Assembly (NCBI GenBank): GCA_936450465.1
Contig: OW388298.1
Coordinates: 10,922,663-10,986,662 of the forward strand
Length of the DNA stretch: 64,000 nucleotides
From: Gibbula magus
Lineage: Eukaryota > Mollusca > Gastropoda > Trochida > Trochidae
Reading direction: 5' to 3'
The notes below the pieces were generated by a model. The model was not told where the DNA came from and did not search any database. It saw nothing but the letters and a program-made list of their open reading frames with translations. How positions within the stretch are numbered: the stretch's first letter is position 1; every line of letters starts with the position of its first letter. Of the stretch, positions 15,527 to 53,849 are shown piece after piece. A program made the translations under genes and the position numbers.

Positions 15527-16905
15527 AGTAATAATAATAATAATAATAAATTTATAGAGCGCCTAATATCCACCATGGAGATGCTCAGTGGCGCTATGAC
15601 AGTAATTGAAAATTAATAGGAAGCAGAGAACAGATAGGTCTTCAGAAGAGATTTAAAAGTTTCTTTAGATGAGGTGTTTCTAATGTCACTAGGGAGGGAG
15701 TTCCACAGTTCAGGACTTGCGTAACTGAAGGCTCGATCAGACAGTTTATTTGGAGATCTGTGTTGTGTTAACAGGGAGTCAGACGATGATCTGAGGGTTC
15801 GCTGGGGTACATACACAGAAATAAGTTGCTTCAGATAGTCAGGAAAGTTGTCATTGTAGAGACAGTCATGAGTAAGAATGAGGATTTTGTAGGAGATTCT
15901 AGCAGGGACTGGCAACCAGTGTAGAGACTGTAGTACTGGGGTGATATGGTCATAACGAGAAGTGCGGGTGAGACATCTGGCAGCAGAGTTTTGAATTCTT
16001 TGCAGTTTTTGAAGTGACTTGGAGGAGAGGTTGGCATATAGAGAGTTGCAGTAGTCTAGTTTAGTAGTGACAAGGCAGTGCATCAGAAGTTTACAGGTGT
16101 CAAGGTCAAGGTAGTGACGGACTCTACTGATATTGTGGATGTTGAAGAAGCAGGCTCGACTGATGGCAGTGATGTGAGCATCCATGGACATGGCGGAGTC
16201 GAACATGACACCTAGGTTCCTGACACTCTTGGATGGTTCGACGCTGGTGTCACCGATGTCAAGAGAAGGTGAGATGGAACTGGTCTTCAACTTGGCAAGC
16301 TGGTGTTTCGAGCCAATAAGTAGGAACTCGGTCTTCTCCTCGTTCAGCATCAGGAAGTTGGTAGTCATCCACGACTTAAGCTCCTGTATACACAGTTCAA
16401 GAGTGTTGATGTTGATGGTTAAGTCTCCTGATTCAAAGGCAATGTAGAGCTGTGTGTCATCTGCATAGATGTGGAAACTGATGAAATACTTTCTGATAAT
16501 GTCACCAATTGGGAGAATGTAGACAGTGAACAAGAGAGGCCCGAGAACTGACCCTTGAGGAACACCGTATAACAAGGGTGACTTTGATGATTGTACATCA
16601 CCAACTTTGACAGATTGTGTGCGTCCTTGTAAGTATGAGGAGATCCACTGAAGAGCAGTTCCTCTTACCCCGATACGGTGTTCAAGTCGATGGAGGAGCA
16701 AGTTATGATCTATGGTGTCAAATGCGCTGGAAAGGTCAAGCAGTACTAGCGCTGTCATCTTTTTCTGGCCCATACTGACTAAGATGTCGTTGTGGATTCT
16801 CACCAAGGCTGTCTCCGTACTGTGGGAAACCTTGTAGGCCGACTGGAAGGACTCTGAAAGGTTATTCTTCTCAAGATGTAAAATGTTTTCATTAATAACT
16901 TTTAA
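15527..16905 (-). mobile_element. 5'-truncated non-LTR retrotransposon (L2/CR1-like LINE)
   Basis: A minus-strand LINE fragment that holds the C-terminal part of the reverse transcriptase ORF and a short 3' UTR. The UTR ends GGATATTAGGCGCTCTATAAA followed by an (ATT)n microsatellite at about 15,527-15,550. The 5' end is lost near 16.9 kb, where a TGA and a duplicated 23-bp AT-rich word stand. The endonuclease and ORF1 are absent, so it cannot move by itself. It shares its 3'-terminal motif with the SINE at 25.4-25.7 kb. Confidence 0.85.
15613..16905 (-). CDS. LINE reverse transcriptase, C-terminal fragment
   Basis: The open frame runs uninterrupted to a stop at 15,613 and encodes a non-LTR retrotransposon reverse transcriptase. 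Visible landmarks are a Leu-Asp-Leu-Ser-Ser-Ala-Phe-Asp block carrying the first catalytic aspartate, a GVPQGSVLGPLLF motif, the catalytic YADD box (near 16,460), and the thumb and C-terminal region ending in a LeuLysThrTyrLeuPhe-like tail usual for L2/CR1/Jockey-group LINEs. The N-terminal endonuclease is missing through 5' truncation. No stops interrupt the roughly 430 remaining codons, so the insertion may be fairly young. The exact clade is inferred from memory. Confidence 0.85.
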   Translation of the reverse strand, partial: LKVINENILHLEKNNLSESFQSAYKVSHSTETALVRIHNDILVSMGQKKMTALVLLDLSSAFDTIDHNLLLHRLEHRIGVRGTALQWISSYLQGRTQSVKVGDVQSSKSPLLYGVPQGSVLGPLLFTVYILPIGDIIRKYFISFHIYADDTQLYIAFESGDLTININTLELCIQELKSWMTTNFLMLNEEKTEFLLIGSKHQLAKLKTSSISPSLDIGDTSVEPSKSVRNLGVMFDSAMSMDAHITAISRACFFNIHNISRVRHYLDLDTCKLLMHCLVTTKLDYCNSLYANLSSKSLQKLQRIQNSAARCLTRTSRYDHITPVLQSLHWLPVPARISYKILILTHDCLYNDNFPDYLKQLISVYVPQRTLRSSSDSLLTQHRSPNKLSDRAFSYASPELWNSLPSDIRNTSSKETFKSLLKTYLFSASY

Positions 16906-16929
16906 ATGTTTTCATTAATAACTTTCTTT

Positions 16930-18874: not shown

Positions 18875-21800
18875 CTGAAAGTAAGTAACAAAAGAGCTTT
18901 AAAAACACCATAGTGTATTTACCCTGTAAGTGCCAGTGAATTAGCATTTAAATAGAAACATGTGGACCAGGCCCTGGATCATGTAGTGGCTTTAGACGGG
19001 TTTCCGCACACTCTGGTAGTATCATTAGCTCTGAGTGACAAGAACAGCTAAACATTGACTTGACGTTGATCACATATTCACCTCAATTTCATCTCATACT
19101 CGGCACGTTGTTGACGCAGCATCTTCAAAATGTGATCATCTGGAAACTCACCATCCGAATCACAAGTTTCATCTGAAATTTTGATAAATAGAATCACTCT
19201 TCTCCTTTTTTAATTGGAGAAAATGGGAGGAAGGAGGAGACTAGGAGGTAAAGGGGGAGCTAGGAGAGATGAAGTGAGGTTGAGACAGTAGGAGAGGCAA
19301 GGAGAAAGGAGAGGCCAGGAGAAAAAGAGAGAGAAAAGGAGAGGGGAAAGAAAAGGATTGAATAGAGATGAAGAGAGGAGGGGAACGTGGCAGAAAAGGA
19401 TTGAAAAGAGAAGAAGAAAGAGAGGAAAATAAAGTAGTAGAGCACAGAGCAGGGACAGAAAGAGCAGAGAAGTGAAGATAACAAAAAAAAGGAAGAGAGG
19501 GAGGAGGAGAGAGGAAAGGAGGAGAAAAGGATTGAAAAGAGAAGAAAGGAGAGGAAAAGAAAGTAGTAGAGAACAGAGCAGAGACACATAGAGCAGAGAA
19601 GTGAAGATAACAAAAGGAGAGGAGAAGAGAGGAAAGGAGTTATGGAGAGGGGCAGAAAGGAGAGGAGAGAAGCAGAAAAGAATTGAATAGAAGGAAAGGA
19701 AAGTAGTCAAGAACAGGAGAGAGACACAAAGAGAGGAGAGAGGGGAGAAGAAGTCTGAATAGGACAGAAGACGAAGAGGATGAAAAGAAAGATGAAATGT
19801 ATTTACCAAGTTGTTGTAGGCTACTTGCTGGTTTTCCTGAAGGACCAGCAGATAGCGGAATGTGTGGTCGATGTGTCTGGTCTTTTGAAGGGATTTCCTG
19901 GTTAGACAGAGAATGTGATTGGTCGCCTGGAGGGGACAGAATATTTGATTGGTCGACTGGGTTTGAGGGAACTTGGGATTGGTCAGTGACAGAAGCCCAG
20001 GAGTCGACACTTGAGAGAATAGCACTTGTAGATCCACTGAATAGATGCTCTGAAATAGTCTGGAAAATAAATAAATAACTATATTAGTACTGGTGTTGTT
20101 CTCCAACACTAGATCAAAGAGTCACCCAGTGTGTTTTGGAGTCACATATGCCACAAATGTTACAGATTGTGTTACTTTATGGAGAGAAAATGACTGTTGC
20201 AGAAAAAGACAAATTTAATTATAGTGGATTCAGTATAGTGACGATGAACATGAAATTGTTTCTTTTATGTCACTAGATTTTCATTTGAAATGAATAATTA
20301 TCTTATTTTTGGTGACTGGAGATGAATATGCAACTTTAGTGAAATTATCAACTTCCCAATGCAAGGCATAACTCTTGCCAGTCTCCATTACTGGCTGATT
20401 TAGGCCTTGCAGTATTTCCTTAAGAAATCTGTGTTTAGAAATCCAGGCCCGCTATGCATTTCCAGTGCAGCGATTCACTGCCTCGACACAAGAAAGCGAG
20501 GGAAATACCGCAAGGGTTAACTCAGTCAGTAATGCAGACTGGCAAGAGTTATGCCTTGCGTTTGGAAGTTGTGAAATTATTTGAAATGAAATAATCACAT
20601 ATTTTATTTTGTCACGTATTAAAGCCAAAAAATACTATGAAAAACACTGAATGTCACTTCGCCCAAAGTTATACATTGAAAAGCTGAACAAACAATCTTT
20701 TTAGATTTGAAAATTGTGGATAGGTTACTAAAGTAAAGGCTTGCTCCTTTCAAAATATAGAACATTGCTCCGAATGTCCGGTACATGCGCGAAGTGAAAG
20801 CAGTGACTCCAAACTCTGTTCTGTGTGTGCAGAACATGTTCTATTGCTGTGCAGCTTGCACCTGCTTTTTTTAAAAACATGTTCCGCACACCCAGAACAG
20901 TGTTCACAGCTACTCCTTTCACCTCGCACATGTACCAGACATTCGGAACAAGAGCCAGACAGTGAAAGGAGCAGCCCTTTTGGGTCTGTTACCAATTTGA
21001 ACATTCTCCCCTGCCGTGTAGATACAAATATGGAGAGAAACATACCTGACCAATGGCTGACGATACTGTTGGACGTCCAGGGCTACTTGAATGAACTGGT
21101 CTTGGAGCAGTCTGAAGTTGTTTTCCTTTCTTACAGATTTGTCTCCCTTTGTTTGAACCTTCACTGTGGCATCTAGAGTTATCTCCCTTAGTTTCTTCAC
21201 ACTCTCCTCTTGCTGGTTCAGCATCTCCAAGAAATTCAGAATTAGAACTGGAATCACATTCAGTCTTATTCCACGAAACTCTTTTTCTTTCATGGACATT
21301 TGGATCATAATTATTTGTAGAATGTTCCCCGTCATAAACACGTGTAGAATTTTTTCCATAAGTATCTTCTCTGTTTCTATGATGTCCTTGTTCTTTCTTA
21401 TTTCTAGATTTTCCTCCTTTGTCAATATTTCTTGAAATTCTCTGGTCATCCTCATCAGCAGACATGTTTCTCCTGTTTTTCTCTTCACTTTGAGGTTTCT
21501 CTGCCTGCAGATACTGTTTGTATCGGACCCCATCTGGTGTCGAACTGTCTGAAAATGTCTCATTAAGGTCATTTGAGTACCGTTTGGAAAAGTCTTCAGC
21601 ATGGGGGCAAGGTAAGAGATCGCACATAAGATGGAGGTGGGGTTCAGTACGAGCTTCTTTCTTCCTTGGAAGTGTTGGACTCGCGATCTCCTGATTACTT
21701 GAATTTTGTCTTGGAGGGGAGGAAGGGGGAGGTTTAAGTGGCATAGTTTCAGAAGGAAAATCTTTAGTCATGGAATCTGTTGTTTCGGTGCAAGTGTCTT

Positions 21801-24800
21801 TGGTCTCAAACATGTAGGCTTTTGAAGATCTCTGTGTTTGTACCTCCGCATCAACCTTGAAAACAGAAAGTGACATTCAAATCTCTGAAAAAGAGATTCC
21901 CAGTAGAGCAGGAATTATCTAGCTAAGAAAACATGCCCAAGTTTCCAGACCAAGTATATATGTCTGAATATTAAATAATTACATAAGATGTGATCAAAGG
22001 TTATCATCATGATATGATTAGTGAGATTGCCACTATGAACAATTATATAGAGGTCATCTAATACCATGTACATCTCATCGAGTGAGGTAGAACTATTATA
22101 TTTTCACGAGATGAGATAAATATGGTATTTGTCAAGAATTGACGGATATTCTATTTATCATATGAGGTTTTCCTTGTAATTGCATTCGAAAAGGGTTGTT
22201 TTCTCGCCGTACGGCCGCTGGGAACAACCCGTCACCACAGCAACACTGACTCAATTTCGTCGTGTGAGACCATTGTTTTATGACGTCAAATTATATCAGT
22301 CACTGTTCGCAGTGAAAATATAAGTTATTTTCACTGTAGCAGTTTATTTCACTGATAAATCCCAGTACTTCATTGCTCGTCATATAATAAACCCACTGTC
22401 TATAGAAGTAGTACCTTTATCTCATCTTGTTTCTGTGGTGCGGGTGTAAAGTGAAGAGACGATGATGGTATCCCATTTGTCAAACCTTCAACACGGCGAC
22501 GAAATCCATCCAGTTTACTGTCTGTCTCCTGTCAAATAAATTCTATTGTTACAATTATGTATTTCCATTGACTTGGGCAAATATACTTCACAATTAGCTC
22601 TCTCACAAGCATTCAAATCAAGACCGTAAGAAAATATGATGAGGGGTGTTGTTTATAATATAATCAATACAAGTAAATAAGTAGAGCCACGGACTGAGCT
22701 GATCAGGGTTTGTCGGGTTGCTATGGTTGGTAAATGAAACAGTATTAAATTTGAATTTCATCAGTCATTAAAGGGGTCCACCACTTTATGAAAAGAAAAC
22801 ATCGAAATACAAACAAACACAAAAGAGAAAATCTTCACCTGCTAATGGCTTCTTCTGATTCACAACTAAATGTATTATGTTAGGGGTCATTTCAATTAAA
22901 AATATAATTAAAATTTACAGCATAGAAACCCACTGGATAGCTGTGCTCAATGTATAATAACAAGTTCCATTGAGCATTTTATCACAGCCTAAAAGGAGTG
23001 CGCACCACAGTTAAGTTACACCTTGACCTTGACATCCCGTATAGACGTGTGTTCCGAACCAGTTTAACGCAGCCAAAGGCCAGTCAAATAGCTGACCAAT
23101 CACATCATAGTTTTTAAACGGTCACTGTTTTGAAAGCATTCAAAACAGACAAAAGGATAGCTGTTTGGAGTTATCTGCCCCTAGCTTCTTGCACCGAAAG
23201 CTTTTGTTGGACGTCTTGTGATTTACTGAATTGCGTCAGAACATGGGAGTCTATGGGCTGTTTCCAGACGGTTTGGCGTGGAAACCTCCGAACAATATGA
23301 GTTTGTATCCCGGTAGATGCACAACTTGCACATCTTTTCCGCGGAATACCGTCGGTTTTAATCAGACTGAAGTCTTGGTCAGCATAATACAAAGATGATA
23401 TTCTAAAAAAATAGAGCCATGGGCTCTGTACACAATATTACAGCCTTCTAGGTCAAAAAGTGTGAATGGCGAAGTTGAAAAACGGAGAGATTTGCATAAA
23501 TTATGCAAATGAGGGTATGATCATGCAAAAGGCAAATGTACACATCATTGTGATTGTACATATCAAGTTTCGTAAAATTTTAACAACTAGTGTCATAACT
23601 AGAGTTATGAGCGAAACAAAAGCAATCGCGGCGGATGCACGCACGGACCGACCGACGGGCACGCTAACCGCTATATACCCGCGACTATGTTGAGCAGGGG
23701 TATAAAAAAGGCTTTCTTTGATTAACCCAGGACCCACAGATAAAGGCTTAACTTTACAAAGATAAATGACTTTCTTCCCTTTTTGCATGTGTTGACAACT
23801 AAAAATAACTTCAGAAGCATGTTTTAACCTTTCCTTTGCAGAAATTTACCTTAGATGTATATGACTTCATGGTCTTGAAACCCTGACCTTGACCTGTCTG
23901 TGCGACCTCCATCTTTCTTCGCAACCGCCACTGATAGAGAATGTCATCTTCAGGTTTCTGTGACCGCCGTACGACCTTAATGTCAGGTTGCGGGACTCGA
24001 TTTTCAGGAATTGTGTCTGGTAGGAGTAGAAAAAATACATCATTTTGTCAATCAAGCTGTGTTCCCTGAGGAACATTGCTAGAAGAAATACGTTGACCGA
24101 TTCACCTGGATAGCAGCCTGCTGGGAGGGCCTTACATAGAGAATACTAAACGGCGTCCCCTTTAATAACATTTTCATGAAACGAGTGGATGGCTTTGGTA
24201 AAGTTTCATAAAAATGTTATTAAACGGGATGGAGTTTAGCATTTTATGTATAACACGCTCTAAATTAATGAAAAATGTTATTAAAGTTGAATGTGCATTT
24301 ACGTAGATGTGCACAGGGATACATCTTTTATCATGGATGCATAACGCTATCGCACTAAACACCAAAAATAGACCAAGAAAATATCCATTAATAACATTTT
24401 CTATTTTGAAAAATACAATTTCAAAACACTAATTTATTGTCTTTATGTTGGAACTATAAGAATTGCAAATTGGCAAGTAAACTAAACATTGTATTAATGT
24501 CACTAGATCTTATAAATGATGTCAGGTGATTGTGACGTCTCCGGAATGCGACTGTTTTCAACAGCGATTCAGTTAGTTACAGCTGTACATAGCTACAGCT
24601 GCATTGCCAAAATAGGCTCTGTAACACCCTGATGACAATGATACTGAGGAGAAAAATTACATACAGTTCTGCAGCTAGATTCATCTTGTGAAATTGTGAG
24701 GAGCATTGTCCTTTTTTTGGGGGGTTTGTTTTTTGGGGTTTTTTTTAAATGTTTTTTTTTTAATTCCATTTCAAATTCATACATTCATTTCATTTAAACA

Positions 24801-27800
24801 AACAAAGGCATTGTCCTTGTTGCCTATGAAGTTAACATTGACGGCACAAATTGCTAACAGAAACACCGAAAATGGAGTTCCAACATTTTTAGCCAACGTA
24901 AAAATTTTATATCAACATTGGCAGCCTCCACAACCTCGAAAACTTAAGTGTCGACACGTATGAAGCTAATTTTTTACATTCAAAACAATGAAACCCATTC
25001 CTCAAAGAGAAGAAAATATCAAATTGTACCCTTAAGGATTACAATTTAGTCGCAATAATACTCAACTGATGATTGCCACAGTATTCACGGGTTCAACATG
25101 AAGTTTATTCTTTGTGAATTTAAAATCTACATTAAACTCGGGCTTTGTCAAATCACGAGAACCCTAACGAGATTACATGTCAAGGGAACTAACTCTGAAT
25201 CAACCAAGTGATACTGATTGACAGTAAATTGTGATAGAAGTGTCCGTACAATATTAATCATAAGACTTTATCTGATAGAAAAAAGTGTCTGTAGAAAACC
25301 AGTGTGATCCCAAAAGCCATGTGCAATGTCATACAACAGTGTTGAATTACATTTCAACGTTTCACAACAGCAGTATCTTCAACAAGAGTGTAATAAATAT
25401 TAGTTGAGCACAGTGGTGTAGTGGTTAGCATGCTTGCCTCTCACGCCAACGGCCCGGGTTCGAATCCCAGTGGAGATACCAAACATTTGTGACCTGGGTC
25501 TTATACTGTGTTGTGCCCCTGGGCAAGCCACTTCATCCACATTGCACTCAGTCCACCCAGCTGTTTAAATGGGTACCTGAACACAGGAGGTACGGACCTA
25601 TATGATCGCGCGGAGCGCTTAGTAGCGGCACCAAAAGTACAATTCCTTCAGGGTAATAATTGTACCACCATTGAGCAGTGCTTGCACTGGATATTAGGCG
25701 TTACAATGTATATTATTATTATTATTTATTATTAGTTATCAACATGTGGGAGGGCATTACACAATAGTAAACAACCTGCTGGGAGGGCATTACACAATAG
25801 TAAACAACCTGCTGGGAGGGCATTGCACAATAGTAAAAACCTGCTGGGAGGGCATTGCACAACAGTAAACAATCTGCTGGGAGGGCATTACACAATAGTA
25901 AACAAGATGTGTTTGTTAAACACGGATGCCCCCGGATAACCCAAAGTTATGGCCAAGGTTAAAGTTTTTTGAAAATGTCCACTGCGGCAAGGTCAAAGTC
26001 ACAAGGTCAAATATGATGACCTCATCTGAAAGGTTTCATCACAAGGTATCCACATGCCAAGTATGAAAGCGGCAGCTCTGAGCAATCCAAAGTTATGGCC
26101 AAGTTTGAAGTTTTTGTGGACAAACACAGACAGACGGACAGGTGAAAAACAATATGCCCCCAGAATCTCCGATTTGGGGGGCATAAAAACCTGCTGGAAG
26201 GGCCTTACAAACTAGTTAACAAATAGTAAACAACCTGCTGGTAGGGCATTGCACAATAGTAATCAACCTGCTGGGAGGGCATTGCACAATAGTAAACAAC
26301 CTGCTGGGAGGGCATTGCACAATAGTAAACAACCTGCTGGGAGGGCATTGCACAATAGTAAAAACCTGCTGGGAGGGCACTGCACAATAGTAAACAACCT
26401 GCTGGGAGGGCATTGCACAATAGTAAACAACCTGCTGGGAGGGCATGACACAATAGTAAACAACCTGCTGGGAGGTCATTACATACTAGTAAACGACGAG
26501 ATTGATGACTTACAGGTTTATAACATGAAAGGAATCGTCACTAATCATTTGATCTAGGTAAATCTTCTCATGTTTTCACCAGTCTAGTGTTTTCCTTTCT
26601 TTAGAAGAAATAAAGAAAAGTTTAGAGGGAGTGACACCTAGCACAATCAGAAAACAAGGTCATAGTCAAGAAGGAAGTTTGGTTTGAAGACAGTAGACCA
26701 TCAGTCAGCTGGGTGCACAATGAGAACATCCCTAACAAAGAGAATATTCCAGGACAAGCAGGTAAAGAGTTAATTAACAAGACTTAAGGCATATTTGAAT
26801 CAGATCGAACGTTACACTCTTGTCTTGTTTGTCGACCTGAGTACTTCCCCACAATGGTCATGCCAGGTGACCTCCACTGTGACCTTTTACCTTCAATGCA
26901 TCCAGCTAATCAGAGGCCGTCTTAGATATGGCATTGAATGTGGTGTTTCATATGTCAACTCAAGTCAATCCGATCGCTTTCTTGCCTCGTCAAATGTTTG
27001 GCTGGAGTAAGAGGTCACCCTACACGACCTCTATGGTGCAGTACTCAGATCTTATACGCAGTGCTCTGAGAGAGTAAGTTTGATCTGATTTAAATGAGAT
27101 TGAATGTTCGCCTACCATGTCTTGAGTGCGCAGGGTACTGTGTAAAGATGGGCCTACCATGTCTTGAGTGTGCAGGGTACTGTGTAAAGATGGGCCTACC
27201 ATGTCTTGAGTGTGCAGGGTACTGTGTAAAGATGGGCCTACCATGTCTTGAGTGTGCAGGGTACTGTGTAAAGATGGGCCTACCATGTATTGAGTGTGCA
27301 GGGTACTGTGTAAAGATGGGCCTACCATGTCTTGAGTGTGCAGGGTACTGTGTAAAGATGGGCCTACCATGTCTTGAGTGTGCAGGGTACTGTGTAAAGA
27401 TGGGCCTACCATGTCTTGAGTGTGCAGGGTACTGTGTAAAGATGGGCCTACCATGTCTTGAGTGTGCAGGGTACTGTGTAAAGATGGGCCTACCATGTCT
27501 TGAGTGTGCAGGGTACTGTGTAAAGATGGGCCTACCATGTCTTGAGTGTGCAGGGTACTGTGTAAAGATGGGCCTACCATGTCTTGAGTGTGCAGGGTAC
27601 TGTGTAAAGATGGGCCTACCATGTCTTGAGTGTGCAGGGTACTGTGTAAAGATGGGCCTACCATGTCTTGAGTGTGCAGGGTACTGTGTAAAGATGGGCC
27701 TACCATGTCTTGAGTGTGCAGGGTACTGTGTAAAGATGGGCCTACCATGTCTTGAGTGTGCAGGGTACTGTGTAAAGATGGGCCTACCATGTCTTGAGTG

Positions 27801-30800
27801 TGCAGGGTACTGTGTAAAGATGGGCCTACCATGTCTTGAGTGTGCAGGGTACTGTGTAAAGATGGGCCTACCATGTCTTGAGTGTGCAGGGTACTGTGTA
27901 AAGATGGGCCTACCATGTCTAGAGTGTGCAGGGTACTGTGTAAAGATGGGCCAACCATGTCTTGAGTGTGCAGGGTACTGTGTAAAGATGGGCCTTCCAT
28001 GTCTTGAGTGTGCAGGGTACTGTGTAAAGATGGGCCAACCATGTCTTGAGTGTGCAGGGTACTGTGTAAAGATGGGCCTACCATGTCTTGAGTGTGCAGG
28101 GTACTGTGTAAAGATGGGTCTGTAGGCCACTTCCTCCACGCTACTTCCTGTACCGCAGCTGGTGGATCCCAGACCGTCCGTGCTGACCGCGGGCTCACTG
28201 GAACGCAGACTTCCCAGACTGTAAAAGAACAGGAACAGTCAGACTCTAAGTACTGTAATCAAATATCAGTATGCCCAATTTGGGAGCATAAAATCTCAAT
28301 TTCTCTATTTTGCGAAAGCCGTGTGAGCTAAAAATATGTTTATATTTAATAAATAAACAAATGCTTCTTTAAATAACCTCATCTGATTGCTATGCGACAC
28401 ATACTCTTGGCGAGAAGCTGTTACTTTGACCTAACCCTAACCCTTATTGTATATCCATGCGGAGTTTCAGGTATGATGAAGGTTTTTTTTTAGTTCTCTG
28501 GAAACAAACCTATCTCTGAACAAAGCCCAAATCCAACAAATTTCTAGGCATCACTTCAGTAAGTCGGCAATACACATGCAAACGGTTTTCGAGTTCTGCT
28601 CAGGAAACTAAATGATTATGACAGGGCAACAATTATATCCCACGTTATTACATACCTGTAGGATAAAAACGTATTGACTGTGAGCCGTCAACCAAATTTT
28701 ATTACAACAAAATAAGGTAAAACAAAACAGCATGAGATGTTTCATGGTTTGATGGGTGGGTGTGGATAGTGAACCATGCATGATTGGTTCTGACTCGTAA
28801 TTAGATATGACCATTAGATAAGAAAACTTAATAATTATCCCAATAACCAATGAATGAATATAAGCACCAGCTGTTTTTAAAATGATGAAAATCTAGACCA
28901 GAAGTGCAAAAGAATTATGGAAAGTGTTTGTTCTAGATATTGGAATGCACTGACAACATCATAATAGAAGAAAATAAAATCATACAAATTGAATATGATA
29001 GTTTTTCGGACTTTGAATCAATAGATGGCAACATTCACTCAATGGATAGTGACGAAGCTACGAGTGAATTGGTACGCTTGAGCTTCGGTTCGGTACATAT
29101 TGCGGTACAGGACTCTCGGTTCGGTACATTTTAGGTGTTTTTTTCAATAAACGTATAAACTAAACCATAACATGTTTTCTCAAAATTAGTTTGTAGGGTG
29201 TAGAAATCATTTGGTTTTAAAATTACACAATGGAAAATGTAATGACATCTGAGTGAGTAAAACATAATTGTTTAATTAATTTATATTTTCGGTATACCGA
29301 AAAATCACGTTGATGTACCGTGTACCAAAGCGTAAGCAAAATACAGCGGTTCAACTACTGTAGTTGTGAACCGTTTCACCCCTAGACAAAACATGAAAGC
29401 AACCAAAACCTGTCTTCAAGCAGTCTATCTGCCCGGGCTTGTAGTTTCATCGTGTCTTCATCCACCATTGTGTGAGAAAACTCTTGAAGTGTCTTCTTCG
29501 TAAGGGGAATATTCTGAAACATGATTAAGCAAAAATCTGATGAATATTATGTCTTGATTTATAATATCTACTGAACTTTCAACTGGATATTAACACAAAT
29601 GAGGTGACAGTTGACAGAAATTTGCCTCCTGAAGGAAATATTTTGTCAACATTGCGTTCTTGGTGTTTGAAACAGGACACCAAAGTTCCACTTCAGAAAC
29701 ACATCCAACTCCACTTGACCAGTCAGCAAATATTATAAGTTTCAGCATATTTATGGAAATATTGTCCTGCATTAAAAAGGAAGATAAGCAAGAATCGCGT
29801 CCATGGTGTTCTTGCACACACTTAAAACTGACCTCAACCTTAGAGTAAAATTTTTTAGCAGGTTTATTGAAATATAATGGACAGAAGATAAGCAGAACAC
29901 TAGCTGATAATCTCCTACAAAGTCCTACAAAGGGACGCAACTCACCCCTTGTCTGCCCTGATCTGTAAACTTCCTGCTCCGTGGTTGGTCCTGGTCTTTA
30001 GGTGTGGAGGTGTCGCTAGGGGCGGGTGGACTCTGTGACAACCACCAGAACTCACCTGACTTGCCGCAGATATCAGTGCGACTTCTCTCCTCACGACTCA
30101 TCGGGGCTCCGTGACGGAATCGCTCAATGTAGCTGTTGTGTATAAAACGTTCTGAGATAGAATGAATTTTACCGGGCGAACATAGTTCATGTTCATTTCA
30201 CACTCAATCTTTTATCGCTCATTTCTTTAGCCCTTGGATTACCCTTAGATTGTTTTTAACCCTTTGATCCTTGTTAATGATCTTTTAGGGTTAGCTTGTC
30301 TAGTGTAAAGTTCAGTGCTCCCACGTGAAGACCAGCGGGATGATGAGTAATTGATACTATGATAATTGTGATACTTCATCTGACAATATTTTTATATGCA
30401 CTGTTGAATGAAATTTGTGAATTGGCTACAGGCACTGTAGTTTAGAGTATAATGTCTGAGTTAACATTGTTGCGTTCAATGAACATGCCATTTATGACGA
30501 ATATAACTAAAAATGACAACGCTTGTGAGCATGCTGTACCAAAGCAATCAGAACTCTCTGGCACAGAACAGGGGGCAAAACACAAAAATAGAGCCACTGG
30601 CTCTGAAGCTTATCAGGAATCATGTTATTAATTATCCCTAAGAAAAAGATTAAGATATCACATAATAAGTCATTGCCCAGTCATCAAACTTATTATCAAA
30701 ATTGGTTACACATCAATCCATATTCATTATAAATAATGTAGACCTTTGCAGTTTATTGTTTTACTTCTTATTTTTATTCTAGAATTATCAACATTTATTA

Positions 30801-33800
30801 CATAATGAAAAAGAGAGCCTATTTGTTTCTAAAAATCCTGTTTCTCATAGGCTCCTTTTCAATATTTAATTAATAAATTCTATTGAGCATCTGAGTGTAA
30901 GACTAAATCAGTAACACAGCAGAGAAGTAACCTGAAACCTCTGTGTATAAGCTGCTGTTTGCATCTCTGCCAGGGAGTGGTCACTCCCCAGGTCAACACC
31001 TGCAATTACACAACATGCAGACCCTGGACTCACAGCCAGTAAATTATATATTTTAAACTTTTTTTCCCCCATCTTTATTTATTTTTCTTTATTGGAAAAG
31101 AAGATGTGGTATCACAAACTCATGTAGCTAGTTTTAATAGTCTTATCTTACTTGATCCCCAGTCATATTTAGTTCACATATCTAATGTAAAATAAAACAT
31201 TCCTTAACCCTTTTTAAATTTTTCCTATGCATCCTGTCATAATATTCAGTTCACAGGCTATTCAATAGTTTTTATTTCCCATTGATTACATCAAACATGT
31301 CCATATAATGTAGTATTACTCTTAAGCTGACATATGAAGTGCACATAAAATCTCATTAACTTCACAGCTCATTAAAACAGCTGTTTTAAGTGGTTACCCC
31401 TGTGATCCATATTTGGGGTCACAAGATCACCAAATCTACAATTTAGAATCCCCATTGGCCAAAGAGTCTGTACATAACATTTCAGCTTTCTAGAGCTTTT
31501 GGGAATGGAGAAAAAGATGAAAAATGCTTTTTAGGTTGTGACCCCTGTGGCACTTATTTGGTGTCACAGGGTTACCAAATCTACAATTTAGAATCCACGT
31601 CAGTCAAGGATTCTGTTCATAAAATTTCAGCTCTCTATGTTCATTGGGACTGGAGAAGAAGATGAAAAAAGCTTTTTAGGTAATGACCCCTGTGGCCCTT
31701 ATTTGGGGTCACAGGGTCACCAAATCTACAATTTAGAATCCCCATTGGCCAAGGAGTCTGTACATAAAATTTCAGCTCTCTAGAGTCATTGGTTCTGGAG
31801 AAGAAGTAAAAAAAAATGAAAAGTTTACGGACGGACGCATGGACGGACGCCATCCCATGCCATAAGCCCATCGGGCCTTTCAGGCCTGATGAGCTAAAAA
31901 GGTTTAATTTAAACAGTTACAGACTGGCAAGAGTTATGCCTTTGCAGGTAAAGTTGTGTATAACTCCCAAAAATTAGATCCATGGGCTTTGTAGCTCATC
32001 AAGATTTGTATTATATGATGAAGAAAACCGAAACAAATTGTTCTCAATATAATGCACAATGAATAGCCAAAATGTGCAAAGCTTACAGAAGAGGCCGGAA
32101 AGCCAGATGATGGATGATGGCCAATGCCAAAAGCCAATCTGACGTTAAAGGTCAGATGAGCTAGTAAATTGTGAATTTGTGATTTGTATTCATTGAACGT
32201 CAAACAAACAACCTCAAACATTCGACATTTGATATTGACAAAAGAAACCATGCCCAAATGAATGTTTTTCGACATGATTATCCCACCTTTGTAACACTGA
32301 GCCATTGGTAGGCGGGTCCTGCTTGGTTGTCCCCATGTTGCTCACTGCGCCCGGTATGTGTGTGTTGTACGTCGACTTGAGATAGGAGAGTGCATCCGCC
32401 ATACTGTGATGTGTTCCAAGGTCCTGACTCTCACTCTCCGCTACACTGCAGGTAGAAATATCTCCATTACTACATAATATACAGAGAGATCGGCATTATC
32501 AGTGTATTATAAGCTTGAAAGGTAGCAAGCTTAAAAGTGCTTTTTGCCAAAATTGAAGAAAATACTTACGAAGTTAAGAAGACTAAACATTACCGAGCAA
32601 CAGGCTGTCAGATAGACCTTCGGGAACCAGTGATTTTGTACGAGGAACCGGTTCGTAGGAGAGGTAGCTTCATAGGACGATTCGGTTCATAGGTGATTTC
32701 GTAGGAGTATAACTACCGGTATCTTAATTAAATTAACAGGAAGAAATTTATCGTTGCCAGGCAAAGTAGAAATACCAGGTCAAACAAAATGCTTATTGAA
32801 GCTTGCTTACTGCAAACTCACTTGTGATAAGAAATATATGTACATGTTGTAAATATACCATATAAAAAATAGAACTGTTGACTTGCGGTGTCTGTTATTA
32901 TTGGTTTAATAAAATAGTTGCTCATAACTGTCAAATTGTACATAACATACTTGCCAGTTATATTTATTAATACAAACAACACAAAATAAACACTACTGAT
33001 CAACCAGTATAATCCAGTTAAAACTCTCCTATGAAATCGCCATTCAATCCTCCTATGAAATCACCTACACATTATATACACTCATTACACAAATATATCA
33101 CAACCTGCATAACCTCCAGAGAAAGAGGTCAAAATCAAAGTATTTCAGACTAGTGCATTTGTGAAAGTACTAGCCCATTTGTATTCCAGTTAGCAAAATA
33201 CATAAACATGATGATATCATCTTTAAATGTAACTAGTTGCTAGTTCTAAAAGTACTAGACCAGACTTATTCCAGCTAGCCAAATACATCTCCATGATCAT
33301 TTCACCTCAAATTTTAACTCGTCTTTTGGACTTCTAATTTTTACACTCTACTAATCCAGCTTCTTTTTCACTAGAAAATGGGCTACCGGACAAGTGCTAA
33401 TTTCAATCCCTGTAATACAGTTCATTCCTCTTTACCTAGAATATGAAGGTCTCTCGCTGTGTGGCCAGGACTCCTCAAAATGTGCTGAGTCATCACTTTT
33501 GTCTTTGTTTGTATCTCTCACGGCATATGAGTTACTTCCCTTGAGGAAAGCATCTTCCTCTGGTGTCAGCTTTATACTTGATTTCTTATCCTGTCGACTG
33601 GGGCTCAGCGTTATCTGAAAATGTACGGTAAATAAAATAAATCAGATTTCATACTAACAATTAAGAACTACCACTAAAGGGGCTGAAGCACGTTTTTTGC
33701 AAAATCTATTTTTTCAAATTTCCCATTTATAATGATAGTTTGTGTCATTTAAATTTACTTAAGAGGGGTAAAAGATCTTATTAAACAAACCAATTATCCG

Positions 33801-36800
33801 TAGTAGTTAAAAAGGTGTTGCCTACAAAGAAAAAAATAGAGCCATGGGCTCTGTAGCTCATCAGTATTTCATTGATTTACTATCTTAAGTGATTTAAGTT
33901 ATTTAAGTAATTGTTTACAAGCATAAGATAGGTTCTTAGATCATGACCTCTGTGACCTCATTTGGGGTCACGGGGTTACACAATCTACAATTTAGAATCC
34001 CCATTGGCCAAGGAGTCTGCACACAACTTTTCAGCTCTCTAGACCTTTTCGAACTGGAGAAGAAGATGAAAATAGGTTTTTAAACATGTGACCCCTGTGA
34101 CCCCATTTGGGGTCATGGGGTCACAAAATCTACAATTTAGAATCCCCATTAGCCAAGGAGTCTGCACACAACTTTTCAGCTCTCTAGACCTTTTGGAACT
34201 GGAGAAGAAGATGAAAATAGGTTTTTAAACATGTGACCCCTGTGACCTCATTTGGGGTCATGGGATCACGAAATCTACAATTTAGAATCCCCATTTGCCA
34301 AAGAGTCTGCACACAACTTTTCAGCTCTCTAGACCTTTTGGAACTGGAGAAGATGAAAATAGGTTTTTAAACATGAGACCCCTGTGACCCCATTTGGGGT
34401 CATGGGGTCACGAAATCTACAATTTTAGAATCCCCATTAGCCAAGGAGTCTGCATACAACTTTTCAGCTCTCTAGACCTTTTGGAACCGGAGAAGAAGAT
34501 GAAAATAGGTTTTTAAACATGTGACCCCTGTGACCCCATTTGGGGTCATGGGGTCACAAAATCTACAATTTAGAATCCCCATTAGCCAAGGTGGCTGCAC
34601 ACAACTTTTCAGCTCTCTAGACCTTTTGGAACTGGAGAAGAATATGAAAATAGGTTTTTAAACATGTGACCCCTGTGACCCCATTTGGGGTCATGGGGTC
34701 ACGAAATCTACAATTTAGAATACTCATTGGCCAAGGAGTCTGCACACAACTTTTCAGCTCTATAGACCTTTTGGAACTGGAGAAGAAGATGAAAATAAGT
34801 TTTTAAGGATGTGACCCCTGTGACCCCATTTGGGGTCATGGGGTCACGAAATCTACAATTTAGAATCCCCATTAGCCAAGGAGTCTGCACACAACTTTTC
34901 AGCTCTCTAGACCTTTTGGAACTGGAGAAGAAGCTGAAAATAGGTTTTTAAACATGAGACCCCTGTGACCCCATTTGGTGTCATGGGGTCACGAAATCTA
35001 CAATTTAGAATACTCATTGGCCAAGGAGTCTGCACACAACTTTTCAGCTCTCTAGACCTTTTGGAACTGGAGAAGAAGATGAAAATAAGTTTTTAAGGAT
35101 GTGACCCCTGTGACCCCATTTGGGGTCATGGGGTCACGAAATCTACAATTTAAAATCCGAATTAGCCAAGGAGTCTGCACACAACTTTTCAGCTCTCTAG
35201 ACCTTTTGGAACTGGAGAAGAAGCTGAAAATAGGTTTTTAAACATGAGACCCCTGTGACCCCATTTGGGGTCATGGGGTAACGAAATCTACAATTTAGAA
35301 TACTCATTGGCCAAGGAGTCTGCACACAACTTTTCAGCTCTATAGACCTTTTGGAACTGGAGAAGAAGATGAAATTAAGTTTTTAAGGATGTGACCCCTG
35401 TGACCCCATTTGGGGTCATGGGGTCACGAAATCTACAATTTTAGAATCCCCATTAGCCAAGGAGTCTGCATACAACTTTTCAGCTCTCTAGACCTTTTGG
35501 AACCGGAGAAGAAGATGAAAATAGGTTTTTAAACATGTGACCCCTGTGACCCCATTTGGGGTCATGGGGTCACAAAATCTACAATTTAGAATCCCCATTA
35601 GCCAAGGTGGCTGCACACAACTTTTCAGCTCTCTAGACCTTTTGGAACTGGAGAAGAATATGAAAATAGGTTTTTAAACATGTGACCCCTGTGACCCCAT
35701 TTGGGGTCATGGGGTCACGAAATCTACAATTTAGAATACTCATTGGCCAAGGAGTCTGCACACAACTTTTCAGCTCTATAGACCTTTTGGAACTGGAGAA
35801 GAAGATGAAAATAAGTTTTTAAGGATGTGACCCCTGTGACCCCATTTGGGGTCATGGGGTCACGAAATCTACAATTTAGAATCCCCATTAGCCAAGGAGT
35901 CTGCATACAACTTTTCAGCTCTCTAGACCTTTTGGAACAAGAGAAGAAGATGAAAATAGGTTTTTAAGGAGGTGACCCCTGTGACCCCATTTGGGGTCAT
36001 GGGGTCACAAAATCTACAATTTAGAATCCCCATTAGCCAAGGAGTCTGCACACAACTTTTCAGCTCTCTAGACCTTTTGGAACTGGAGAAGAAGATGAAA
36101 ATAGGTTTTTAAGCATGTGACCCCTGTGACCTCATTTGGGGTCATGGGATCACGAAATCTACAATTTAGAATCCCCATTTGCCAAAGAGTCTGCACACAA
36201 CTTTTCAGCTCTCTAGACCTTTTGGAACTGGAGAAGAAGCTGAAAATAGGTTTTTAAACATGAGACCCCTGTGACCCCATTTGGGGTCATGGGGTCACGA
36301 AATCTACAATTTTAGAATCCCCATTAGCCAAGGAGTCTGCATACAACTTTTCAGCTCTCTAGACCTTTTGGAACCGGAGAAGAAGATGAAAATAGGTTTT
36401 TAAACATGTGACCCCTGTGACCCCATTTGGGGTCATGGGGTCATGGGGTCACAAAATCTACAATTTAGAATCCCCATTAGCCAAGGAGTCTGCACACAAC
36501 TTTTCAGCTCTCTAGACCTTTTGGAACTGGAGAAGAAGCTGAAAATAGGTTTTTAAACATGAGACCCCTGTGACCCCATTTGGGGTCATGGGGTCACGAA
36601 ATCTACAATTTAGAATACTCATTGGCCAAGGAGTCTGCACACAACTTTTCAGCTCTATAGACCTTTTGGAACTGGAGAAGAAGATGAAAATAAGTTTTTA
36701 AGGATGTGACCCCTGTGACCCCATTTGGGATCATGGGGTCACGAAATCTATAATTTAGAATCCCCATTAGCCAAGGAGTCTGCACACAACTTTTCAGCTC

Positions 36801-39800
36801 TCTAGACCTTTTGGAACTGGAGAAGAAGATGAAAATAGGTTTTTAAACATGTGACCCCTGTGACCTCATTTGGGGTCATGGGATCACGAAATCTACAATT
36901 TAGAATCCCCATTTGCCAAAGAGTCTGAACACAACTTTTCAGCTCTCTAGACCTTTTGGAACTGGAGAAGAAGCTGAAAATAGGTTTTTAAACATGAGAC
37001 CCCTGTGACCCCATTTGGGGTCATGGGGTCACGAAATCTACAATTTTAGAATCCCCATTAGCCAAGGAGTCTGCATACAACTTTTCAGCTCTCTAGACCT
37101 TTTGGAACCGGAGAAGAAGATGAAAATAGGTTTTTAAACATGTGACCCCTGTGACCCCATTTGGGGTCATGGGGTCACAAAATCTACAATTTAGAATCCC
37201 CATTAGCCAAGGTGGCTGCACACAACTTTTCAGCTCTCTAGACCTTTTGGAACTGGAGAAGAATATGAAAATAGGTTTTTAAACATGTGACCCCTGTGAC
37301 CCCATTTGGGGTCATGGGGTCACGAAATCTACAATTTAGAATACTCATTGGCCAAGGAGTCTGCACACAACTTTTCAGCTCTATAGACCTTTTGGAACTG
37401 GAGAAGAAGATGAAAATAAGTTTTTAAGGATGTGACCCCTGTGACCCCATTTGGGGTCATGGGGTCACGAAATCTACAATTTAGAATCCCCATTAGCCAA
37501 GGAGTCTGCACACAACTTTTCAGCTCTCTAGACCTTTTGGAACTGGAGAAGAAGCTGAAAATAGGTTTTTAAACATGAGACCCCTGTGACCCCATTTGGG
37601 GTCATGGGGTCACGAAATCTACAATTTAGAATACTCATTGGCCAAGGAGTCTGCACACAACTTTTCAGCTCTCTAGACCTTTTGGAACTGGAGAAGAAGA
37701 TGAAAATAAGTTTTTAAGGATGTGACCCCTGTGACCCCATTTGGGGTCATGGGGTCACGAAATCTACAATTTAGAATCCCCATTAGCCAAGGAGTCTGCA
37801 CACAACTTTTCAGCTCTCTAGACCTTTTGGAACTGGAGAAGAAGCTGAAAAAAGGTTTTTAAACATGAGACCCCTGTGACCCCATTTGGGGTCATGGGGT
37901 CACGAAATCTACAATTTAGAATACTCATTGGCCAAGGAGTCTGCACACAACTTTTCAGCTCTATAGACCTTTTGGAACTGGAGAAGAAGATGAAAATAAG
38001 TATTTAAGGATGTGACCCCTGTGACCCCATTTGGGGTCATGGGGTCACGAAATCTACAATTTAGAATCCCCATTAGCCAAGGAGTCTGCACACAACTTTT
38101 CAGCTCTCTAGACCTTTTGGAACTGGAGAAGAAGATGAAAATAGATTTTTAAGGATGTGACCCCTGTGACCCCATTTGGGGTCATGGGGTCACGAAATCT
38201 ACAATTTAGAATCCCCATTAGCCAAGGAGTCTGCACACAACTTTTCAGCTCTCTAGACCTTTTGGAACTGGAGAAGAAGATGAAAATAGGTTTTTAAGGA
38301 TGTGACCCCTGTGACCCCATTTGGGGTCATGGGGTCACGAAATCTACAATTTAGAATCCCCATTGGCCTAGGAGTCTGCACATAAAATTTCAGCTCTGTG
38401 GAGTTATTGGTTCTGGAGGAGAAGTCGAAAAAGCGAAAAGTTTACGGACGGATGGACGGACGGATGGACGGACGGATGGACGGACGGACGGACGCCGGAC
38501 GCCATCCCATGCCATAAGCCCATCGGGCCTTTCAGGCCTGATGAGCTAAAAATGCATGGCGGCCATTTTATTGTGAACACAATTTATTATTTTGAATGAC
38601 AAAAACGATGCCCATGGGCTTACTGAGCCATGTACACTCATTTTTAACTTGATTTTCAAAGTGATAAGGGTATTGGTAAAATCATTTTTCAAATACAATT
38701 CGACTTACTTGAGCGAAAAAGAATGTGCTACTGCCCCTTTAATAGATCAATATTAATATATTGGAAATTAAATATTGACCTACATGACTGCCATTCTACA
38801 TCCAGTTTGAAATGGTTCATAATAACATTACATGAACAGTGGTGGTTTGCACTGAAATGTATTATTGATGTGTACATGATATCATACATTTTTCATGCAT
38901 GTCTTTTTTATAATAATTAACCTTATTTATCTATAAACATTATCAACATTAAAACTGTAATGGTTCACAACATCGTCAGTTGAACCGTGATTTGTGTTTT
39001 GCTTTCAGTTCAGTACACAGAAGTTCATTTTGGATGTAAACAGCAAACCATACTTTTTTAATGTTTAATTATATATTGTAATAGTTTATGTTATTTATTC
39101 CATGTAATATATTTTCAGTTTTTTATTATGTTTATTTATTTTAAAAAGTTATTTTCAATAAATAAAATTATGATTTGTAGTGATATTAATAGTTTTCATG
39201 CATTGCATTTAATGTAACTGACAGAATGCTCAATTTGAAACAATGTCACAGACACTGATCACAGAACAAATGCTGAATCAATGCTTATCAGGATTCTCTA
39301 TTTCTAGTCAAGAAACATCCTCGGTCAACGAAATCTGTACTAAAATTACCCGCCCTTGGCCTGCGTGAGCCAATCAAACCGCTACGCAGTTTGGACCTGC
39401 AAGCCAATGACAATTCATATCACTTCGTTGTAAAGCATGCTAGGTCATTATGTTAGCCATCCTTCACCGGTTATCTCCCTTGACCATTTCCGTCTTATCG
39501 TATTGAGTATTTTCTTTGGTTACTGACTTCGTCACGCCGGCCAAGGGCGGGTAATTTTAGTAGAGATTTCGCTGACAGAGTTTCCCATGGGTGATATAGT
39601 GGAGAGTAACGGAGCATATATAAAACCCTGGGTAACCGAGGATCGCCAAGAAAGTGCTCCACTTAAAACAGAGGTTATTTGGGAAGACATGACTTGGGTA
39701 ACCTCTGAAAGGTGAGAATGTTGTGAAGGGGAGAGAACTCCTATGGGGTAATGACGACACTGAATAGAGACAACTGAAACGTTGAATACCTTTTTATCTC

Positions 39801-53613: not shown

Positions 53614-53715
53614 TATTGATTTCTGCGGACACTATTCTATTGATTTCTGCGGACACTATTCTATTGATTTCTGCAGACACTATTCTATTGATTTCTGCGG
53701 ACACTATTCTATTGA
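53614..53715. repeat. 24-bp minisatellite x4
   Basis: Four near-identical units of TTGATTTCTGCGGACACTAT plus TCTA downstream of PFDN2. One unit differs (CTGCAG for CTGCGG). Confidence 0.9.
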
Positions 53716-53849
53716 TGTGTTCACATGAAACTGCAAGTTCTCTTTTTTGAGTAATGAAGATTATTTGAAATTGCGATAAATGATTATTGAATGTCATGTC
53801 AGATGTCAACCTGTCTGCAGAATAGGAGATATCTTGAAAGATTAATTTC

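Follow-up and report, generated by a model that had tools for sequence, protein, structure and literature searches.

A 24-unit minisatellite that repeats the inferred end of a coding exon together with its splice donor

The array described here resembles a rare arrangement that has already been described, with human IFI6 as the published precedent. The unit of the IFI6 minisatellite is 12 bp long and therefore in frame, compared with 42 bp or 14 residues here, and the choice of an alternative donor keeps the IFI6 reading frame. In the cited part of the IFI6 report, two downstream minisatellite units are used as alternative donors, which yields three mRNA species (PMC4526556). In both loci a minisatellite provides one exon with several splice donors. 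They differ in the gene concerned and in that donor use was measured in IFI6, whereas here it is predicted from the DNA sequence.

The second comparison is with the VNTR in intron 18 of human ABCA7, which has a 25-bp repeat in 23.7 reference copies and includes the exon 18 donor. According to the sections cited, the form longer by one unit makes up 2 ± 1% of transcripts, unvarying with repeat length; it is frameshifted and prone to decay, and cycloheximide raised such forms (PMC5954066). As decay removes the frameshifted form, use of the second donor has to be higher than 2%. In both cases a tandem repeat flanks the exon, the units begin with the exon's donor and the reference holds about 24 copies. 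However, one 25-bp unit shifts the ABCA7 frame, whereas 42 bp always stays in frame, and length variation and its splicing effects were measured for ABCA7, whereas one assembly is considered here.

A tandem exonic unit with both GT-start and AG-end signals is also known from intron gain by tandem duplication, as in the Rogers model and in fission yeast, where introns lie across several copies of 24-bp repeats (excerpt of PMC4974935). In contrast to that model, with its duplicated AGGT and unchanged peptide, AGGT is absent from the present unit and splicing within the array breaks the frame, so that a new intron arising here would not be silent.

Extent and rarity of the array

In the 64-kb stretch of Gibbula magus DNA analysed here (the window), Tandem Repeats Finder reported 24.0 copies of period 42 with 98% matches at 27110-28118. 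An in-register table of the units gave the following limits.

27111..28118, minus strand: minisatellite of 24 x 42 bp, head-to-tail, consensus CCCATCTTTACACAGTACCCTGCACACTCAAGACATGGTAGG
28118-28077 and 27152-27111, minus strand: array units 1 and 24

A pattern search allowing up to three mismatches found 24 unit copies in the window, compared with 0 expected from 100 shuffles. The exactly 24 units of 42 bp proposed in an earlier note on this DNA were thus recovered by all three procedures. The array holds six substitutions per 1008 bases, and 18 of its 24 units match the consensus exactly. Among the matches scored in its own 1.47-Gb genome (40 of 48 candidates), none was a unit copy outside the locus. 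With the DNA of exon 8 and the array as query, the locus was present once in its own assembly among the matches listed, and neither a paralogue nor a second haplotype with a single-copy exon end was found among them; the protein of exons C-10 as query gave no second gene copy in the genome among the matches listed.

An open frame through a 42-bp unit is a cheap feature. Three of the six frames are open through the array, and among 20,000 random 42-mers from the window a given frame was open in 45%, and in 58% at least three of the six frames were. The splice-like motifs in one unit are rarer than an open frame: a donor and an acceptor at array-like scores occurred together in approximately 1% of random 42-mers from the window (n = 20,000).

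Coding on the opposite strand was set aside, as the 343-residue cysteine-rich ORF at 27094-28125 (plus strand) had no Pfam match and open frames are expected in such arrays. A reading of the array as part of a mobile element is not supported: the unit was not covered by any match outside the locus (40 of 48 candidates scored) and was absent from all eight aligned copies of the adjacent transposon. Rfam scans at the gathering threshold and tRNA scans gave no matches.

The predicted exon and its donors

Seven exons (C, D, 8, 9, 10, 11 and 12), all predicted from the sequence, were joined around the array.

29946..30151, minus strand: exon C, 206 nt, in the same frame
29410..29513, minus strand: exon D, 104 nt, ending in phase 2 as exon 8 requires
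28082..28218, minus strand: exon 8 to the unit 1 donor, 137 nt, the predicted main form, whose frame fits both neighbours
27116..28218, minus strand: exon 8 to the unit 24 donor, 1103 nt, the longest in-frame form
23850..24016, minus strand: exon 9, 167 nt, needing one base from exon 8, which every array GT donor supplies
19807..22528, minus strand: exons 10 (22528-22415), 11 (21855-21046) and 12 (20059-19807), in one open frame

The acceptor of exon 8, CCTGTTCTTTTACAG/T at 28218 (slashes mark the splice point), scored 10.51 and ranks top of the eight inferred acceptors. From this acceptor the frame PIFTQYPAHSRHGR stays open through 24 of 24 units, which agrees with the earlier statement that no unit has a stop in the frame of the exon. 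The introns flanking exon 8 are 1191 nt and 3099-4065 nt long. Skipping of exon 8 leads to an early stop, and the gene model thus depends on an exon with this phase at the site. Depending on the donor used, the seven-exon product has 596 to 918 residues, at 14 residues per unit; the 805 to 1127 residues given previously span the same 322 residues, a spread that is retained over the seven joined exons. The full length of the protein and the numbering of this exon as exon 8 are provisional, as the upstream exons B and C do not join properly. Together, our data support the view that the array straddles the 3' end of the inferred exon and has multiplied this end along with the donor.

The donor ATG/GTAGGC is intact in 21 of the 24 units (1 and 5-24) and a GT donor is present in 23, in an array that straddles the exon-intron boundary of the gene model.

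27951..28076, minus strand: array units 2-4, with donors GTTGG, GAAGG and GTTGG, those of units 2 and 4 weakened and that of unit 3 lost (no GT)
27111..27950, minus strand: array units 5-24, twenty ATG/GTAGGC donors whose bases -3 to +6 are those of unit 1

The earlier description that nearly every unit ends in CATG/GTAGG therefore applies to 21 units and fails for units 2 and 4 (GTTGG) and 3 (GAAGG). The 37 exon bases that precede the donor are identical in 21 of the 24 units, and short RNA reads confined to the junction cannot distinguish the unit that was spliced. Because the donors of units 2-4 are poor or absent, the likely range is 1 or 5-24 repeats and not the continuous 1-24 copies that had been proposed.

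Splice sites were scored with general matrices, which may not reflect the animal's own splicing habits. On this scale the array donor (6.36) outscored each of the nine GT sites that exon 8 holds in its unique portion; the best of these reached 5.42, and its use would leave a 20-nt exon. Of the 7560 GT sites counted on the two strands of the window, leaving out the minus strand of the array, 2.1% scored at least as high, and among the eight donors inferred in the gene (range 0.47-9.67) the array donor ranked fifth. Judged by these scores, it appears to be a credible donor of only moderate strength. The U1 pairing of the intact donors was -7.7 kcal/mol among the units listed. Since the first five units folded less stably than 200 of 200 shuffles, their donors do not look buried.

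As in IFI6, donor choice is neutral for the frame: exon 9 was joined in frame from 23 of 23 array GT donors and the frame stayed open through exons 9-12, which confirms the earlier claim that splicing in the array leaves the phase needed by exon 9. As the unit length is divisible by three and the exon's frame runs through each unit free of stops, any GT donor can replace another without a change of frame.

This does not extend to the acceptor-like motif, which the earlier note had reported for each unit. The motif is indeed present in 24 of 24 units, with a score of 6.63 compared with 10.51 for the exon's own acceptor. Removal of one internal array intron created a stop in 2066 of 2066 combinations, joining exon D to an array acceptor did so in 297 of 297, and of the micro-exon chains of one to four (four tried) the chain of three alone kept the frame. 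We therefore rejected internal acceptor use as a simple source of protein variants.

The six changes in the array (three synonymous, three non-synonymous) gave no sign of coding constraint on the repeat peptide (P = 0.14 for at least three of six synonymous, with low power; P = 0.084 with units 2 and 4 taken as one event). Three of the six fell into 5 of the 42 positions, the donors of units 2-4 (P = 0.026, or 0.11 with units 2 and 4 counted once), with clustering in the three bases GTA at P = 0.006 (0.044 when they count once). These tests were all chosen after the data were seen. The pattern suggests, but does not establish, a loss of the competing donors beside unit 1.

Intron 8 contains two further kinds of element beyond the array.

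26793..27102, minus strand: old MITE-like short inverted-repeat transposon, terminal sequence CAATCTCATTTAAATCAGATC; the far end is degraded and 26793 approximate
25733..26494, minus strand: two 33-bp minisatellites (26222-26494 and 25733-25905)

The transposon, with its boundary at 27102, begins 13 nt beyond the exon end in unit 24, and the frame meets a stop at codon seven after the array; as both lie just beyond, the exon must end within or before the array. The sequence past the array is dispersed, with 39 of 62 matches elsewhere in the genome, none of which covers the unit (40 of 48 candidates scored). The 33-bp minisatellites carry a weak donor-like CAG/GTTGTT in eight places (six and two) and serve as a control for how cheaply splice-like repeat features arise.

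Choice among the donors

Most probably, with a probability of about 0.6, the donor of unit 1 is dominant and the array is mostly intron, with a small leak to later donors. Computation gave the array, its position at the inferred exon end, the donor scores, the phase and the transposon; the gene model, the choice of donor and the leak are inferences. The duplicated segment would have been 42 bp long, comprising the last 37 exon bases and the first five intron bases, and its tandem amplification to 24 copies would have multiplied the splice donor as well. Exon definition would then begin at the strong acceptor and stop at the first good donor, in unit 1, for an exon of 137 nt with a single repeat; units 2-24 would mostly leave the transcript with intron 8, whose beginning they form. 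Low-level use of later intact donors, of which unit 5 (305-nt exon) has the nearest, would lengthen the protein by 14-residue repeats. Since the array would be mostly intronic and such leakage harmless, little constraint would oppose its expansion and homogenisation.

In the cited part of a study of human donors, the upstream one of near-equal competing donors with long flanking introns is favoured under exon definition, and the upstream donor was the only one used in five minigenes that combined two identical strong donors with introns of 365 nt (PMC9225289). Against dominance of unit 1, approximately 60% of all human events favour the downstream donor before strength is equalised, and minigenes with larger exons skip the exon when both donors are weakened (same excerpt, PMC9225289). 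Moreover, the combined pull of some 20 equal donors may exceed that of the first one.

We consider it unlikely that splicing makes appreciable use of several or many among the 21 intact donors and so yields proteins with 1 or 5-24 copies of the 14-residue repeat; such a ladder might be possible but would not be the default expectation. As all 23 GT donors are in frame, longer forms would escape removal as frameshifts, unlike those of ABCA7. The identical bases -3 to +6 of the 21 donors with their U1 pairing, the open folding of the first five units and the use of two downstream repeat units in IFI6 (PMC4526556, part cited) point in the same direction. The upstream preference under exon definition (PMC9225289, part cited), the weak or dead donors of the three units next to unit 1 and the six changes with no sign of coding constraint (P = 0.14, little power) argue against it, as does the next donor of ABCA7 at 2 ± 1% independent of repeat length, a value lowered by decay (PMC5954066, part cited). 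Still less likely is a working ladder of 21 frame-neutral donors, whose graded proteins (1 or 5-24 repeats) would shift in range with allele length; if true, a single locus would create length variants in its DNA and again in its RNA.

We regard it as improbable that the intron-proximal donor of unit 24 is the default, so that the protein would always contain about 24 repeats encoded by the 1103-nt exon. The frame is open through all units, the 810-nt exon 11 of the gene model implies that long exons may be tolerated, and the downstream preference in about 60% of human events, uncorrected for strength, would fit (PMC9225289, part cited). However, the flanking introns are long and 20 equally good donors lie upstream, a situation in which near-equal donors show upstream preference (PMC9225289, part cited).

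Equally improbable is a regulatory array, whose donor-like sites would serve chiefly as decoys for U1 or would tune splicing or expression according to array length, and would not diversify the protein. U1 binding can shield AATAAA/ATTAAA motifs, and the five in intron 8 might be protected in this way. For ABCA7, the sections cited correlate repeat length with skipping of the downstream exon and lower expression (PMC5954066).

Least probable is an error in the gene model, with exon 8 terminating ahead of the array or being no exon at all: the model was predicted from the sequence alone, the junction from upstream exon B to exon C does not fit and no convincing candidate for a missing exon between them was found, no Pfam family was above cut-off for the predicted protein, the PROSER3 label given in the earlier note is provisional, and the other intron-8 arrays have similar though weaker features, but the acceptor is strong, the phase is correct on both sides, the seven exons form one open frame of 596 residues that is stopped if exon 8 is skipped, and the unique part before the array contains no better donor.

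The locus represents a natural experiment in which the spliceosome chooses among about 20 identical donors in 42-nt steps, and frame neutrality spares the splice products from decay as frameshifts. A profile of donor use against distance would report on many sites at once, while the minigenes in the cited part of PMC9225289 probe two at a time. It would also bear on whether the end of a coding exon can turn into a repeat array harmlessly because the first donor is kept.

The array and the inferred gene

The array, from 28118 to 27111 on the minus strand, consists of 24 copies of a 42-bp unit, and 6 of its 1008 bases are substituted (units about 99% alike). Count and unit size agree with the earlier note, and the array itself is plainly more than chance. 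The acceptor at 28218 fixes a frame in which the consensus unit translates to PIFTQYPAHSRHGR. Three of the six substitutions fall in donor bases of units 2-4 (27951-28076, minus strand), which adjoin unit 1 (uncorrected P = 0.026, or 0.11 should two of them have a common origin). Opposite the array, a 343-residue open frame (27094-28125, plus strand) has three cysteines per 14-residue repeat (GLPCLECAGYCVKM); it had no Pfam match and probably reflects nothing more than the opposite strand of the repeat.

The following exons of the putative PROSER3 homologue were inferred by open-frame joins.

30151-29946, minus: exon C
29513-29410, minus: exon D
from 28218, minus: exon 8
24016-23850, minus: exon 9
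22528-22415, minus: exon 10
21855-21046, minus: exon 11
20059-19807, minus: exon 12

Joined, these seven exons read through in a single open frame, giving 596 residues if one unit is included and 918 if all 24 are. Upstream of C, exons A and B are in frame with one another, but the junction of B (32287-32445, minus) to C (29946-30151, minus) is out of phase, probably because an exon is missing or a boundary lies elsewhere; the exon number 8 and the total of 805 residues given in the earlier note are therefore provisional. Any exon between D, which ends two bases into a codon, and 9, which requires one base from the exon before it, must have a length of 2 modulo 3. Exon 8 has this length whatever its unit number, which bears out, in the inferred model, the claim that splicing within the array leaves the phase required by exon 9. 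Skipping of exon 8 leads to a stop four codons on. Genome searches covered the 1.47-Gb assembly of 140 contigs, in which the window lies on a 77.5-Mb contig (C10). A search of this genome with the translated exons C-10 found no paralogue; all five matches were exons of the same locus.

Predicted donors and acceptors

Splice sites were scored with vertebrate-type matrices. The array donor (ATG/GTAGGC, near the end of most units) scores 6.36, fifth of the gene's 8 scored donors (range 0.47-9.67); of the 7560 GT sites counted on both strands of the window, leaving out the array's minus strand, 2.1% reach this value. The unique part of exon 8 contains 9 GT sites, the best of which scores 5.42 and would give a 20-nt exon. 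Units 2 and 4 have donors that score only 2.33 and unit 3 lacks the GT, which leaves 21 of the 24 units with an equal and credible predicted donor. By score, the suggestion of about twenty usable donors fits these 21, but not the weak units 2 and 4 or unit 3. In RNA folding, each of 200 shuffles of the first five units was more structured than the real sequence (z = 3.46), which hence gave no hint of hidden donors there.

The acceptor-like sequence said to lie in each unit, CCCATCTTTACACAG, is indeed present in 24/24 units and scores 6.63, compared with 5.07-10.51 for the gene's acceptors and 10.51 for exon 8's own. Joining an array donor to a later array acceptor, before the final splice out of the array, met a stop in all 2066 combinations, as did splicing from exon D directly to an array acceptor in all 297. 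In the single case tried, a chain of three 22-nt micro-exons preserved the frame; some use of the motif is therefore conceivable, but simple added variants are unlikely.

Boundaries and neighbouring repeats

Unit 1 directly continues the unique exon sequence, while unit 24 ends in GTAGGC and is followed by unrelated sequence. Repeats downstream of the array are as follows.

26793-27102, minus: old, short MITE-like transposon of about 310 bp with terminal inverted repeats (CAATCTCATTTAAATCAGATC), identified by genome matches
26222-26494 and 25733-25905: minisatellites with a 33-bp unit, both within intron 8 (tandem-repeat calls)

The transposon starts at 27102, 13 nt beyond the exon end at the donor of unit 24. 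Among the 62 listed genome matches to a unit plus flank, 39 are elsewhere and cover the flank only (40 of 48 candidates scored). The copy beside the array and 8 of the 15 other copies compared all begin abruptly at CAATCTC; over the longest stretch matched from the 27102 terminus, BLAST identity to those 15 is 69-84%. Given units about 99% alike, the array as it now stands probably postdates the insertion, unless homogenisation kept the units alike. The seventh codon past the array is a stop in the exon 8 frame; with the transposon at 27102, this means that the inferred exon 8 ends in or before the array. In the simplest history, an ancestral exon end ...CATG/GTAGGCGAACATT would have had its last 37 exon bases and 5 intron bases duplicated to 24 copies.

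The array's open frame is not remarkable, since a given frame is open in 45% of random 42-mers and the 33-bp arrays of intron 8, also with a unit that is a multiple of three, have at least one open minus frame. A donor and an acceptor at the unit's scores occur together in about 1% of random 42-mers, more rarely than an open frame; the pair is expected if the unit came from a real exon end. In the intron 8 arrays, CCCTCCCAGCAG/GTTGTT puts a weak acceptor directly next to a weak donor, CAG/GTTGTT occurring at 8 places (6 + 2) with a donor score of only 2.0.

Other features of the window are listed below.

31374-31814, 33944-38397 and 55610-57447: 145-bp satellite arrays, by eye apparently one family; the largest holds about 31 copies, and the consensus at 55610-57447 looks (by eye) reverse-complemented relative to the others
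43875-49174, minus: LTR-type retrotransposon by its Pfam domains, which are gag (Retrotrans_gag, E 7e-6) and, in a pol frame open over 1072 codons, reverse transcriptase, RNase H and integrase
15613-16911, minus: 432-codon open frame containing an RVT_1 reverse transcriptase domain (E 2e-26) and resembling that of a non-LTR element
53614-53716: 24-bp tandem repeat, 4.3 copies, inside a 113-codon open frame

Expected splicing and known systems

The closest natural case is human ABCA7, whose 25-bp repeat (23.7 reference copies) has units beginning with the donor of exon 18 (PMC5954066). A form longer by one unit makes up 2 ± 1%, independent of repeat length, and is subject to decay (PMC5954066), so that donor must be used somewhat more than this. 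The introns flanking exon 8 are long (1191 and 3099-4065 nt), and human donors of near-equal strength with long introns tend towards use of the acceptor-nearest donor; where two strong donors were identical, all five minigenes used it exclusively (PMC9225289). On these grounds, and by analogy with ABCA7, we expect the unit 1 donor to dominate, with a small in-frame leak to later array donors. Two observations of the minigene study count against this expectation: over all events without a strength filter the downstream donor was favoured in about 60%, and weakening both donors caused exon skipping in larger-exon minigenes (PMC9225289). If unit 1 dominates, the array would be mostly intronic and its growth nearly free, which would explain how so long an array could grow at an exon end.

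The minisatellite of human IFI6 also supplies multiple splice donors (Turri et al. 1995, via PMC4526556); there, two downstream repeat units act as donors, giving three mRNAs (PMC4526556), whereas donor use in the present array is predicted. Among open-licence papers, including most of those listed for PROSER3, none that we found describes an array of this sort in the gene, although one under another gene name may be missed. This kind of arrangement is already in print, and the array adds a further case, notable for its unit length, its number of intact donors and its frame neutrality.
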